A stretch of 64,000 nt of DNA from Candidatus Gastranaerophilales bacterium (GTDB taxonomy: Bacteria; Cyanobacteriota; Vampirovibrionia; Gastranaerophilales; Gastranaerophilaceae): the NCBI GenBank assembly GCA_944327275.1, contig CALVHB010000011.1, positions 1-64,000 of the forward strand, given 5' to 3'. Position numbers and translations under genes: made by a program. Shown here piece after piece: positions 32,446 through 52,948 of this stretch. How positions within the stretch are numbered: position 1 is the first letter of the stretch; every line of letters starts with the position of its first letter. Below the pieces are notes generated by a model. It was not told where the DNA came from. It saw nothing but the letters and a program-made list of their open reading frames with translations, and made no database searches.

Positions 32446-34869
32446 ATGATTAAAAAATTAACTTCACCAAAGGCATTGTTTGCAATGTTTGCAACTATGT
32501 TGTTGGTAGTTTCACCTGCGTTAGCAAGTGAAGCTGATTTAGTTGTTCCAAGTATCAAAGATGCTAGTGCTACAAGTTTTAACTTGTTGTTAATTGGTAT
32601 CGCAATATCTTTTGTAGGCTTGATATTTGGATTTATTGAATTTTTAAGAATTAAAAAATTGGATGTTCATGCAGCTATGGCTGAAGTTGGACATACTATT
32701 TTTGAAACTTGTAAAACTTACTTGATTCAACAAGGTAAGTTCTTGTTAGTATTAGAAGTATTAATCGGTCTATGTATCGCATTTTACTTCGGCTATTTAC
32801 AACATATGCCACTTAGCCATGTTCTAATTATTTTAACTTGGTCAGTAATTGGTATTTTGGGTTCATACGGTGTTGCTTGGTTTGGTATTAGAATGAACAC
32901 TCTTGCTAATTCAAGAACAGCGTTTGCATCATTAAAAGGTAATCCTTTAAATGTGATGAATATCCCTTTAAAAGCTGGTATGTCAATTGGTGTATGTCTA
33001 GTATCAGTTGAACTTATAATGATGTTAACAATCTTGTTATTTGTCCCTGGTGAAATTGCTGGTGCTTGTTTCATCGGTTTTGCAATCGGTGAATCTTTGG
33101 GAGCTTCAGCTTTACGTGTAGCTGGTGGTATTTTTACAAAGATTGCTGATATCGGTTCTGACTTGATGAAAATTCAATTTGGAATCAAAGAAGATGATCC
33201 AAGAAACCCTGGTGTAATTGCAGATTGTACTGGTGATAACGCAGGGGATTCTATTGGACCTACAGCTGATGGTTTTGAAACTTATGGTGTAACAGGTGTT
33301 GCTCTTGTTTCATTTATATTGTTGGCTGTTGCCGGTGAAGCAAACCAAGTTCAATTGTTAACTTGGATTTTCGTTATGAGATTCTTAATGATTGTAACTT
33401 CTGTAGTTGCTTACTGGATTAATGGTATTGCAGATAAATTCTATGCTGCAAAAACAGACAAATTTGATTTTGAAAAACCTTTAACAAACTTGGTTTGGTT
33501 AACATCTATATTATCAATTGCTATGACTTTTGGCGTAAGCCACTGGTTGTTGGCTGATTTAGGAAACAATTTATGGCTTGTTCTTTCTGCAATTATTTCT
33601 TGCGGAACTTTGGGAGCTGCGTTGATTCCTGAATTTACAAAGATATTTACTTCTCCAAAAGCAAAACATACTGAAGAAGTAGTTACTGCTTCTCGTGAAG
33701 GCGGAGCTTCATTGACAATTCTTTCAGGTATCGTTTCAGGTAACTTCTCAGGGTTCTGGATTGGTATGGTAATTGTATTGTTAATGGGATTAGCTTATGT
33801 TGCATCATTACATATTCCTGAATCTGTAATGATTTATCCGTCAGTATTTGCATTTGGTCTTGTAGCATTTGGTTTCTTGGGTATGGGACCTGTAACTATT
33901 GCAGTTGATTCTTATGGACCTGTAACTGATAATGCTCAATCTGTTTATGAATTATCTTTGATAGAAGATGTTCCAAATGTTGCTGAAGAAATCGAAAAAG
34001 ATTTCGGATTCAAACCTGATTTTGATAATGCTAAAAAATACTTAGAAGAAAATGACGGTGCTGGAAATACATTCAAAGCAACTTCAAAACCTGTATTGAT
34101 TGGTACAGCTGTTGTAGGTGCTACAACTATGATTTTCTCTTTGATTTTGGTTATAAAATCAACATTGGGTATTGAACCAGAAATGATACTTAATATGTTA
34201 AACCCATATACATTGCTTGGTTTGTTATCAGGTGGTGCAGTAATTTACTGGTTCTCAGGAGCATCAATGCAAGCTGTAACTACAGGTGCATATTCTGCTA
34301 CTGAGTATATTAAAGATAATATTAAGTTAGATGATGCAAACTCTAAGAGTGCAAATGTTGCAAATTCAAAAGAAGTTGTAAAAATTTGCACACAATACGC
34401 ACAAAAAGGTATGGTAAATATCTTCATCGCATTGTTTGCTTTTGCATTAGCATTTGCATGTTTGTCAGCTCCAAACTGTATGACATCTGCTCCTGTAGCA
34501 TTCTTCGTAAGCTACTTGATTGCTATTGCTGTATTTGGTTTATTCCAAGCCGTATTTATGGCAAATGCCGGTGGATGTTGGGATAATGCTAAGAAAATTG
34601 TAGAAGTAGACCTTCAAGAAAAAGGAACCCCTCTACATGAAGCAACAGTTGTAGGTGATACAGTTGGTGATCCTTTCAAAGATACATCATCAGTTGCAAT
34701 GAATCCGATTATTAAATTTACAACATTATTCGGATTACTTGCTATGGAAATTGCTATTTCTGAATCATTCAGAAACATAGCTCCAATAGCAGGCTGGGTA
34801 TTTTTAATTATTGCATTGATATTCGTTGTCCGTTCTTTCTATGCAATGAGAATACCTACAAACAAATAG
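32446..34869 (+). CDS. hppA: Membrane-bound pyrophosphatase, K+-independent and divergent type
   Basis: An 807-residue ion-pumping pyrophosphatase with about 16 membrane segments. The PPi site is visible as KIQFGIKEDDPRNPGVIADCTGDNAGDS and, near the C-terminus, GDTVGDPFKDTSSVAMNPIIK. Several canonical residues differ: GADLVGKVE is replaced by GSDLMKIQF, and the CAGMAAD segment reads SIGPTAD. The position that sets potassium dependence reads GNTFKAT, with Lys, as in K+-independent pumps. I think it belongs to the divergent clade typified by Chlorobium limicola, but this needs a tree. It pumps H+ or Na+ and saves ATP in fermenters. Confidence 0.93.
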   Translation: MIKKLTSPKALFAMFATMLLVVSPALASEADLVVPSIKDASATSFNLLLIGIAISFVGLIFGFIEFLRIKKLDVHAAMAEVGHTIFETCKTYLIQQGKFLLVLEVLIGLCIAFYFGYLQHMPLSHVLIILTWSVIGILGSYGVAWFGIRMNTLANSRTAFASLKGNPLNVMNIPLKAGMSIGVCLVSVELIMMLTILLFVPGEIAGACFIGFAIGESLGASALRVAGGIFTKIADIGSDLMKIQFGIKEDDPRNPGVIADCTGDNAGDSIGPTADGFETYGVTGVALVSFILLAVAGEANQVQLLTWIFVMRFLMIVTSVVAYWINGIADKFYAAKTDKFDFEKPLTNLVWLTSILSIAMTFGVSHWLLADLGNNLWLVLSAIISCGTLGAALIPEFTKIFTSPKAKHTEEVVTASREGGASLTILSGIVSGNFSGFWIGMVIVLLMGLAYVASLHIPESVMIYPSVFAFGLVAFGFLGMGPVTIAVDSYGPVTDNAQSVYELSLIEDVPNVAEEIEKDFGFKPDFDNAKKYLEENDGAGNTFKATSKPVLIGTAVVGATTMIFSLILVIKSTLGIEPEMILNMLNPYTLLGLLSGGAVIYWFSGASMQAVTTGAYSATEYIKDNIKLDDANSKSANVANSKEVVKICTQYAQKGMVNIFIALFAFALAFACLSAPNCMTSAPVAFFVSYLIAIAVFGLFQAVFMANAGGCWDNAKKIVEVDLQEKGTPLHEATVVGDTVGDPFKDTSSVAMNPIIKFTTLFGLLAMEIAISESFRNIAPIAGWVFLIIALIFVVRSFYAMRIPTNK

Positions 34870-34891: not shown

Positions 34892-34926
34892 AAAAAGAGT
34901 CAGGATTTATTTCCTGACTCTTTTCT
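34892..34926 (+). terminator. hppA terminator
   Basis: The stem AAAAGAGTCAGG / CCTGACTCTTTT with an 8-nt loop is followed by a T-rich run. It separates hppA from prepilin locus A. Confidence 0.88.
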
Positions 34927-34939
34927 TTTTTTATAATGC

Positions 34940-34968
34940 TTGAAACAGAGTGAAATTTTTGTTAAAAT
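34940..34968 (+). promoter_or_regulatory. Outer promoter of prepilin locus A
   Basis: TTGAAA (34940-34945), a 17-nt spacer and TAAAAT (34963-34968) give a near-consensus vegetative promoter. The leader ORF's GGAGG site starts 20 nt downstream. Confidence 0.6.
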
Positions 34969-34998
34969 TGTTTTAGAAGATTTATATGGAGGTAATTT

Positions 34999-35064
34999 AT
35001 GAAGAGATTTAAACGATTGAAAATTTCGGGGGGGGGCGACTATAAGCTTATTGCAAGGATTTAA
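34999..35064 (+). CDS. Leader ORF of prepilin locus A, interrupted by the G tract (current reading)
   Basis: The ATG at 34999 has a strong GGAGG site at 34989-34993. The first ten codons read MKRFKRLKIS, then the G tract encodes glycines. With the present nine G the ribosome leaves the prepilin frame and stops at TAA 35062-35064 (21 residues). With 8 or 11 G the same start reads through the YNSDM codons into the prepilin, giving a 294- or 295-residue product. Locus B has a leader of identical geometry. It may also act only as a regulatory uORF. Confidence 0.6.
   Translation: MKRFKRLKISGGGDYKLIARI
35028..35036 (+). repeat. Homopolymeric tract of nine G (locus A)
   Basis: Nine consecutive G in a strongly AT-rich genome, inside the leader ORF. 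The only other G run of this size in the window is the ten-G tract at the same place in locus B. Such tracts are classic slipped-strand mutation sites. The assembled length may be uncertain. Confidence 0.9.
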
Positions 35065-35067
35065 GAC

Positions 35068-35095
35068 TTGTAATTCTTTTGAAATTGTGTATAAT
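35068..35095 (+). promoter_or_regulatory. Inner promoter of prepilin gene A (leaderless-type)
   Basis: TTGTAA (35068-35073), a 16-nt spacer and TATAAT (35090-35095) precede the ATG at 35102 by 6 nt. A transcript would begin at or next to the ATG, i.e. leaderless. The same elements and spacings occur in locus B. Confidence 0.55.
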
Positions 35096-35101
35096 AGTGA
35101 T

Positions 35102-35884
35102 ATGAAATATCACAATAAAAAATTAGGTTTTACTTTAGCAGAGGTCTTAATTACCTTAGGAATAATAGGTGTTGTAGCTGCATTAACTTTGGTTGTTTTA
35201 GTCGGAAAATATAAAGATATGGTCTTAAAACAACAGTTCAAGCGTGCGTATTCAAACATGCAACAAGCATATCAACAAGTGTATTCAGATACTGGATATA
35301 ATTATGATTGTTTTTATTGGAAAGTGAGACCTTATCCAGAAGCAGTGTGTGTTGAATGGAATGATGCTGGAACTTGTACAAAACTTGAGATGCCTGATGG
35401 ATCTCCTAAGCCTGCAGACTATGCAGGAAAAACTAATGGTTGTGCTGCTTTTATGTCTCATTTAGAAAAATATTTAAAAATAGTGAAAAAATGCAATGGT
35501 CATGCTTTACGAGATAAATGTATTCCAAAATATATGGGTATTGATACTTACTATAAACAGCAAGATGATACATTAACGGATGATATGGCTATACAAAAAG
35601 CATATGGTTGCTCTGGTTGGACTCAAAGTCAAATTGAAAATAATAGGATTGCATATGTTCTTGCAGATGGTACTATTCTTTTACTTTACGGTTCTGGACC
35701 TAGTATATTTGCTATTGATATAAATGGAATGAAGGGACCAAACAAATGGGGACATGATTTATTCTCATTCGGTACAAGAGCAACTTTAGAAGATCCTGCT
35801 TATGTCGCTACTGATCTTAGTTGTAATCCTGTAGAAAAAGGCGGTAGAAATACTGCTTATATGCTTCTTTATTCTTATAAATAA
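35102..35884 (+). CDS. Prepilin-like protein A (type IV pilin/pseudopilin N-terminus)
   Basis: 260 residues from the internal ATG (MKYHNKKLGFTLAEVLITLG). The prepilin peptidase site is G|FTLAE with the conserved Glu at +5, followed by a hydrophobic helix and a QFKRAYSNMQQAYQQ extension. The large C-terminal domain is rich in Cys (about ten) and aromatic residues (GYNYDCFYW, CVEWNDAGTC, GCSGW), probably a disulfide-bonded globular pilin head. No Shine-Dalgarno site precedes this ATG. Expression could come from a leaderless mRNA or from read-through of the upstream leader when the G tract is in frame. Confidence 0.85.
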   Translation: MKYHNKKLGFTLAEVLITLGIIGVVAALTLVVLVGKYKDMVLKQQFKRAYSNMQQAYQQVYSDTGYNYDCFYWKVRPYPEAVCVEWNDAGTCTKLEMPDGSPKPADYAGKTNGCAAFMSHLEKYLKIVKKCNGHALRDKCIPKYMGIDTYYKQQDDTLTDDMAIQKAYGCSGWTQSQIENNRIAYVLADGTILLLYGSGPSIFAIDINGMKGPNKWGHDLFSFGTRATLEDPAYVATDLSCNPVEKGGRNTAYMLLYSYK

Positions 35885-52232: not shown

Positions 52233-52280
52233 ATGGAAAAGATTGAATTATTGAAATTATCGGGGGGGGGGCAGCTCTAG
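52233..52280 (+). CDS. Leader ORF of prepilin locus B, interrupted by the G tract (current reading)
   Basis: The ATG at 52233 follows an AGGGAG ribosome site. The first ten codons read MEKIELLKLS, exactly as long as in locus A, then Gly codons. With ten G the frame ends at TAG 52278-52280 (15 residues). With 8 or 11 G it reads on without a stop through AALGFLSGFSSCKKAKILYN and SDM into the prepilin, giving a 237- or 238-residue product. Confidence 0.6.
   Translation: MEKIELLKLSGGGQL
52262..52271 (+). repeat. Homopolymeric tract of ten G (locus B)
   Basis: Ten consecutive G, 29 nt from the leader ATG and 65 nt from the prepilin ATG. Both distances are identical to those in locus A, so tract length is the only length difference between the two 5' regions. 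Confidence 0.9.
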
Positions 52281-52302
52281 GCTTTCTATCAGGTTTTAGC
52301 TC

Positions 52303-52336: not shown

Positions 52337-52948
52337 ATGCGAAGTCACAGAAAAAGGTTTGGTTTTACATTAGCGGAAGTTTTAATTACTTTGGGAGTAA
52401 TTGGTGTCGTTGCAGCTCTTACAATCCCTCAGCTAGTAGGAACATATAAGCGTAAAGTAGTTGAAGCAAGATTATCAAAGTTTTATTCTGTAATGAATCA
52501 AGCGATAGCTCGTTCTATAGAAGAACATGGTGATATCCCTTTTGAATCTTTTTCAACAAATGATAATTCTGAATATTTGTTGAATTGGTATAAAGAATAT
52601 GTAACTAAATATATTACTACAATAAAGGAAATAAAGCAGTCTGGTTCCTATGTTAAGATTATATTTAATGATGGAAGTGGTTTTCATAGTGTTTTAGTTC
52701 AGCAAAGTAGTAAGATATATTTGTATTATTTTATAGATGCAAGGAATGAGTGGGCAAGTTTTGATGGAAAAAATACATTCTTTTTTGTATATAATCCTGA
52801 GAGTAAGCAAGTAGAAACTTTCTGGCAAAATCAGAGCTATGCAAGCAAAAAGTCTTTATGCTATAATCCAAATCAAAAAAATTCTTGTGCTGCAGTAATT
52901 CAGGCAAATGGTTGGAAGATTCCTGATGATTATCCTTGGATAAGATAA
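52337..52948 (+). CDS. Prepilin-like protein B (type IV pilin/pseudopilin N-terminus)
   Basis: 203 residues from the internal ATG (MRSHRKRFGFTLAEVLITLG). A class III signal with G|F cleavage and Glu +5 is followed by a hydrophobic helix ending in IPQLVGTYK. The soluble domain is smaller than that of protein A, with two Cys near the end (SLCYNPNQKNSCAAVI). The N-terminal 30 residues match protein A closely; the heads differ. No ribosome site lies before this ATG. See the leader ORF and G tract for the alternative fused product. Confidence 0.85.
   Translation: MRSHRKRFGFTLAEVLITLGVIGVVAALTIPQLVGTYKRKVVEARLSKFYSVMNQAIARSIEEHGDIPFESFSTNDNSEYLLNWYKEYVTKYITTIKEIKQSGSYVKIIFNDGSGFHSVLVQQSSKIYLYYFIDARNEWASFDGKNTFFFVYNPESKQVETFWQNQSYASKKSLCYNPNQKNSCAAVIQANGWKIPDDYPWIR

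Follow-up and report, generated by a model that had tools for sequence, protein, structure and literature searches.

Poly-G tracts between leader and type IV prepilin in a Gastranaerophilales genus: a probable default-OFF phase-variation repertoire

Two tract-bearing prepilin loci

The low-GC genome of the Candidatus Gastranaerophilales bacterium considered here (1.62 Mb in 56 contigs) contains about 28 runs of at least nine G, nearly all of exactly ten. Two tracts of at least eight G fall in the window, the 64,000-nucleotide stretch of DNA that was analysed, against 0.13 expected at window composition: one of nine G starting at 35028 (locus A) and one of ten starting at 52262 (locus B). Both lie between a short leader and a type IV prepilin gene, with the following features.

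34893..34934, + strand: intrinsic terminator (13-pair stem, T-rich tail) of the hppA-type proton pyrophosphatase gene that precedes locus A
34940..34968, + strand: candidate leader promoter TTGAAA-17-TAAAAT, with TG before the second hexamer (consensus match only)
34988..34992, + strand: leader Shine-Dalgarno (SD) sequence GGAGG (direct sequence reading)
34999..35027, + strand: leader codons MKRFKRLKI(S), ATG at 34999 (sequence reading and translation)
35028..35036, + strand: poly-G tract of locus A, n = 9, ON at 8 or 11 (sequence reading, translation per length)
35037..35048, + strand: flanking element CGACTATAAGCT, kept across loci on the G strand
35068..35104, + strand: internal promoter-like TTGTAA-16-TATAAT, then ATG 35102 (consensus match; no SD)
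35102..35884, + strand: type IV prepilin of locus A (N_methyl motif, PF07963, E = 6.8e-6)
52233..52261, + strand: leader MEKIELLKLS of locus B, ATG at 52233 (sequence reading, translation)
52262..52271, + strand: poly-G tract of locus B, n = 10, ON at 11 (sequence reading, translation per length)
52272..52283, + strand: flanking element CAGCTCTAGGCT of locus B (sequence reading, motif comparison)
52337..52948, + strand: type IV prepilin of locus B, N_methyl and DUF6613 (PF07963, E = 1.3e-5; PF20318, E = 5.5e-9)

Locus A follows an hppA-type ORF (32446-34869) and is set apart from it by a strong terminator (34893-34924). A preliminary description of this DNA had named a GGAGG site, the codons MKRFKRLKIS, nine G and a distance of 65 nt from the tract end to the ATG at 35102, and direct reading finds every one of these parts. 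For the promoter it had also named, there is a match at 34940-34968; promoter-like matches around locus A number 5 against 5.8 expected, which is chance level. A second promoter-like match (35068-35095), inside the gap between leader and pilin, had gone unmentioned. In the element CGACTATAAGCT, a C lies directly 3' of the tract and AGCT 8 nt beyond.

Translation at every tract length bears out the frame arithmetic claimed for this locus. With nine G the leader ends at the stop at 35062 after 21 codons, and with ten it ends after 15 codons; with 8 or 11 the frame stays open through GFTLAEV, which begins at 35126, and yields a fused prepilin of 294 aa. The proposal that the fused form is ON at n = 2 mod 3 holds at locus A, where the tract gates translation of a type IV prepilin. 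Read in this way, locus A would be in the OFF phase, one deletion or two insertions short of ON, and locus B (G10) a single insertion short. Both window pilins score above the PF07963 cut-off and have the methylation motif G/A-F-T-L-x-E with a hydrophobic helix that defines type IV prepilins; in the locus B pilin (52337-52948), DUF6613 (PF20318) sits behind the N_methyl helix.

A shared frame rule across the genus

Tracts of this kind number 10-137 each in 17 of 18 same-genus genomes and 0-3 in genomes of other families in the order. The host genome has 53 N_methyl pilin matches, about half of them with a tract (~27 tract-pilins); most of its tract-free N_methyl pilins have a short conventional leader at their start, some with an SD. 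The preliminary description had presented locus A as a single contingency gene. The gate on translation stands, and it recurs throughout the genus as a selected design, but locus A is only one member of a large set. Scanning for the tract pattern gave 13 matches in viral contigs, unrelated judging by their flanks, and matches in the genome contigs of many unrelated genomes, with no fused pilin among them.

Each tract locus was translated as assembled and with the tract one base shorter or longer. As assembled, with the tract nearly always ten long, translation from the SD-bearing start ends after ~12-20 codons, and one more base opens the full prepilin; an SD-like sequence precedes the leader start in every scored locus. 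This one-base relation describes 63/71 loci of the first set, 64/77 of an independent named set and 29/33 in the same-genus, 5-contig genome G037, where four more follow it via longer frames. Removal of duplicates left 172 distinct tract-pilin loci, among which 152 are assembled at n = 10 (other lengths include 8, 9, 11 and 12), 150 have n = 10 with ON = 11, whether the run is ten G or ten C, and 13 are ON as assembled. Some loci are assembled ON at n = 11. As in contingency loci, a homopolymer within the 5' coding region sets the reading frame. The G9 of locus A is an exceptional copy among near-constant tracts of ten. The claim that this locus is currently OFF for the fused form is right at G9; the default conserved elsewhere is n = 10 with ON = 11, and an unfused pilin could start at 35102.

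Leader and linker lengths each cover all residues mod 3, yet they compensate one another in 150 of the 152 loci with n = 10, across 98 distinct length combinations. Shuffling linkers among leaders gave compensation in a mean of 56 and a maximum of 74 loci, a comparison that is no clean p-value because the loci are mutually related. Linkers of at least 30 nt are open in the ON frame in 138/138 cases, which is part of how a locus was defined, and the other two frames contain a stop in 138 and 133, which is independent of that definition. At the amino-acid level the linker gives no signal of selection (synonymous fraction 0.26, 0.25 and 0.22 across the three frames), so openness and frame compensation serve as the evidence instead. 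Comparison with related genomes, which the preliminary description had proposed, agrees: at the syntenic site downstream of hppA, n = 10 and ON = 11 are kept in most species with a tract there, while leaders and linkers have diverged. Together, these patterns show that the frame relation of tract, leader and linker is actively maintained and the ON frame preserved by selection.

Several variants of the design were seen. An interrupted tract of 11 nt, GGGGGGGGTGG (L120:1035-1045; G000:C45:12335), is locked in the ON frame; L120, from the same genome as locus A, is related to the phase-OFF pilins and is a close paralogue of L015. In a sister lineage (L157, L164, L172, L181, L184, L197, L200, L203, L223, L233, L245), tracts are 11-12 long, ON is one base shorter and the GCT element is more distant (spacing ~11), which reads as the same OFF-by-one logic in the opposite direction. 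A large pilin class, AEMMVVMLILSIIMAAMAPVMTTRN ('MTTR'-class), is ON as assembled in 3/3 members with a tract (L026, L031, L308) and also occurs without one (L133, L137); it is possibly a core pilin. The peptide 'NVIAHLLRNLKFVI' recurs in the unusually long linkers of L025, L044 and L290; it appears to stem from a dispersed DNA repeat that has entered between tract and pilin without disturbing the ON frame.

Outside the pilins, tracts occur at L033:1498, L050:5025, L335 (a C10 tract), L038:1500 and L039:1502, in genes for a GT8 glycosyltransferase, a weakly NodZ-like protein, an acyltransferase 3, a repeat adhesin and a 517-aa protein without assignment. The lengths and ON frames of these tracts vary, which makes them look more like classic phase variation. 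Many of the non-pilin tracts are in kinds of gene that contingency loci typically affect, the glycosyltransferase, the acyltransferase and the adhesin among them. At L062:17659, a G10 with the element lies in the middle of a 417-aa protein whose whole frame needs +1; this protein has no Pfam match and reads like a phage tail-fibre or adhesin.

Could the pilin be made without the tract? At locus A, the TATAAT of the internal match ends 6 nt before ATG 35102, a possible leaderless, tract-independent start of the unfused pilin, and TATAAT is present in 52/172 linkers. Its wobble bases are nearly fixed (TAT 28/29, AAT 30/30, against a background T of 0.76-0.79) while the wobble of the adjoining TGY (Cys) codon is free to vary (18/29), and for this reason TATAAT in long linkers suggests a real or ancestral promoter. 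Given this conserved TATAAT...ATG, OFF at locus A and roughly one third of loci may signify that the extended form is missing, not that there is no pilin. A stronger version holds that the pilin comes chiefly from the internal promoter and ATG (35102 at locus A) on a leaderless mRNA, the leader and tract being an optional N-terminal extension or a regulatory upstream ORF. The linker's lack of amino-acid constraint would fit this, as would the tract-free pilin L126, which has the same promoter-ATG spacing. However, 72/172 loci have no start codon 3' of the tract, which makes the tract an obligatory gate there, and these still obey n = 10/ON = 11; the fused frame, moreover, runs open through the promoter where the other frames are closed. 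As a general account the internal start is quite improbable.

Replication strand, flanking element and routes to the ON state

The coding strand carries the G run in 124 and the C run in 48 of the 172 loci, under the same ON = 11 rule. The strand that carries G is constant along a contig whatever the direction of the gene and switches where GC3 skew switches, most clearly in G037; in G006 the switch comes close to 320 kb, and G004 agrees broadly with its GC3 skew. Both window tracts are on the + strand, and the window's GC3 skew is positive (+0.237). The G run is on the leading (positive GC-skew) strand regardless of gene orientation, and it is because the run follows the replication strand, not the gene, that about 28% of genes have poly-C.

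Read on the G strand, G-sense and C-sense loci have in common the pattern C-G10-C[A/G]...[A/G]GCT, which marks the element as one of DNA rather than of codons. GCT occurs at +7 to +15 from the tract in 60/69 loci, against about 6 expected. The run is G10 in 107/113 tracts with the C-Gn-C…GCT motif and in 16/32 without the full element (Fisher p = 3e-8).

These observations are best accommodated by slipped-strand phase variation during replication, default-OFF by one base, at one of a large set of such switches on type IV prepilins, and we consider this the probable explanation. Lying after the SD-bearing start of a leader and before a prepilin, the tract would act as a translational switch. 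A replication slip would add one G (or C) in a small fraction of cells and turn that pilin ON; if tens to more than 100 genes are switched in this way, any one cell would display a few accessory pilins, drawn at random, and keep the rest OFF. Two things would determine how often slips occur and keep the resting length at ten: the flanking element, and the leading-strand placement, by which the template of the lagging strand carries the G run. G-rich lagging templates do slip more in Escherichia coli, as shown for a (G4T)4 repeat (PMC10530614). That tract length differs between actual cells is what this model predicts from the assembled sequences.

The alternative of programmed slippage at the RNA level would leave the DNA fixed at G10 or C10: RNA polymerase would add a base, or the ribosome slip by -1, in a fixed fraction of transcripts, and each pilin would be made in small amounts by every cell. 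What keeps this idea alive is also the chief objection to free slippage, namely the near-constancy of ten. Were slippage free, OFF loci should scatter over 9, 10, 12 and 13; instead n = 10 is near-invariant with ON always one base off, it is constant across species at one syntenic locus, and +1 is also needed by some element-bearing non-pilin genes. On the other hand, G and C runs in the mRNA behave identically although slipping by -1 poses a different problem on CCC than on GGG. The slippery run has no fixed sense (124 G-sense and 48 C-sense loci under one rule), and the sister lineage requires -1 instead of +1. Replication slippage fits better than polymerase or ribosome slippage because the gate follows the replication strand and not the sense strand, because both run types work and two lineages are OFF in opposite directions, and because ON-length (n = 11) and locked-ON copies occur. 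RNA-level slippage is for these reasons unlikely.

A further model, which we also hold to be rather unlikely, is that C-G10-C-N(7-10)-[A/G]GCT on the leading strand would be a dedicated site, recognised by a factor associated with replication. This factor would keep the run at exactly ten and now and then lengthen it by one base, so that the frame switch would be targeted rather than a result of passive slippage.

Two other candidates were rejected. Loss of mismatch repair is ruled out as a cause, since tract-rich genomes of the genus have both MutS1 and MutL; slippage is accordingly not raised by a missing repair system, which was counted against it. The RVT_1 reverse transcriptase of a diversity-generating retroelement is absent from the host genome, G000, and from most same-genus genomes.

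Could the missing base be an error of assembly? The true tracts would then be G11, with one G dropped by the short-read consensus, and the genes simply ON. Errors at G runs, from Illumina sequencing as well as from assembly, are documented in Bifidobacterium breve, where a G-tract error was reported in the study's own reference genome, so that assembled lengths can be off by one (PMC9187656). Contig ends and a scaffold gap also coincide with tracts (L053:4634-4671, with G13 and G11 sides; G009:C1:6; G004:C52:1; G013:C119:4), and these breaks are compatible with length heterogeneity or with sequencing failure at G runs. Yet lengths of 11, 12, 13 and 14 do appear in assemblies, the second lineage is one base too long and not too short, motif-bearing and motif-free tracts differ in length within the same assemblies, and those 'MTTR'-class pilins that have this tract are already in frame in the assemblies. 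An artefact is very improbable.

Significance and comparison with known systems

If confirmed, this would be among the largest poly-G switch repertoires known, in an uncultured lineage of gut bacteria on the cyanobacterial side of the tree, devoted almost entirely to type IV pilins and with OFF as its resting state. Such wiring would account for the tens of pilins in a small genome that displays few of them at a time. Strand polarity and the length-ten element make it testable whether context, replication orientation or a protein sets length and slip rate. Nearly all tract-pilins are also liable to mis-annotation by gene callers, because the assembled frame is broken.

Neisseria varies its pilin through pilE and pilS, with an upstream G4. 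The likeness lies in G-rich DNA near pilin 5' ends whose orientation is tied to replication; the Gastranaerophilales loci differ in having no start-less silent copies, an SD and start of their own at each locus, and no four-run G4 motif.

Programmed transcriptional slippage, as in dnaX and IS elements (PMC3711429), shares a fixed homopolymer and a conserved one-base offset. Its runs are usually A/T and of fixed sense, in contrast to the G or C set here by replication strand. The Campylobacter phasome surveyed with PhasomeIt (PMC6321876) resembles the present case in having many homopolymeric G tracts close to the 5' ends of genes for surface structures, glycosyltransferases among them. It comprises 5-81 genes per strain, with 53% G9, 26% G10 and coding-strand poly-C in only 5%, whereas in Gastranaerophilales length 10 dominates, ~28% of pilin loci have coding-strand poly-C and ON is fixed at n+1.

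The pilus G-tracts of the gut commensal B. breve (bbr_0113 and bbr_1889; PMC9187656) are alike in several respects: a tract of 10-11 separates the pilin body from an upstream ORF that has an SD, the reference length is OFF by one base and the downstream start has no SD. There the one-base-OFF logic was shown by experiment and the ON pilus form was measured to be enriched in the gut (PMC9187656). Unlike the Gastranaerophilales repertoire, B. breve has two loci, Gram-positive sortase pili and ON by losing one G; here the loci number tens to more than 100 and encode type IV prepilins, the main lineage turns ON by gaining one G, replication orientation decides whether the coding strand has G or C, and the loci share a flanking DNA element.

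The preliminary description knew of no account of such a switch in this lineage, and none was found in the literature searched. As far as that search extends, what is new is the lineage, the number of pilins, the length-ten element, the one-base OFF design and the replication polarity. Homopolymer phase variation itself is of a known kind, with B. breve as the nearest worked example and Campylobacter the nearest in scale.
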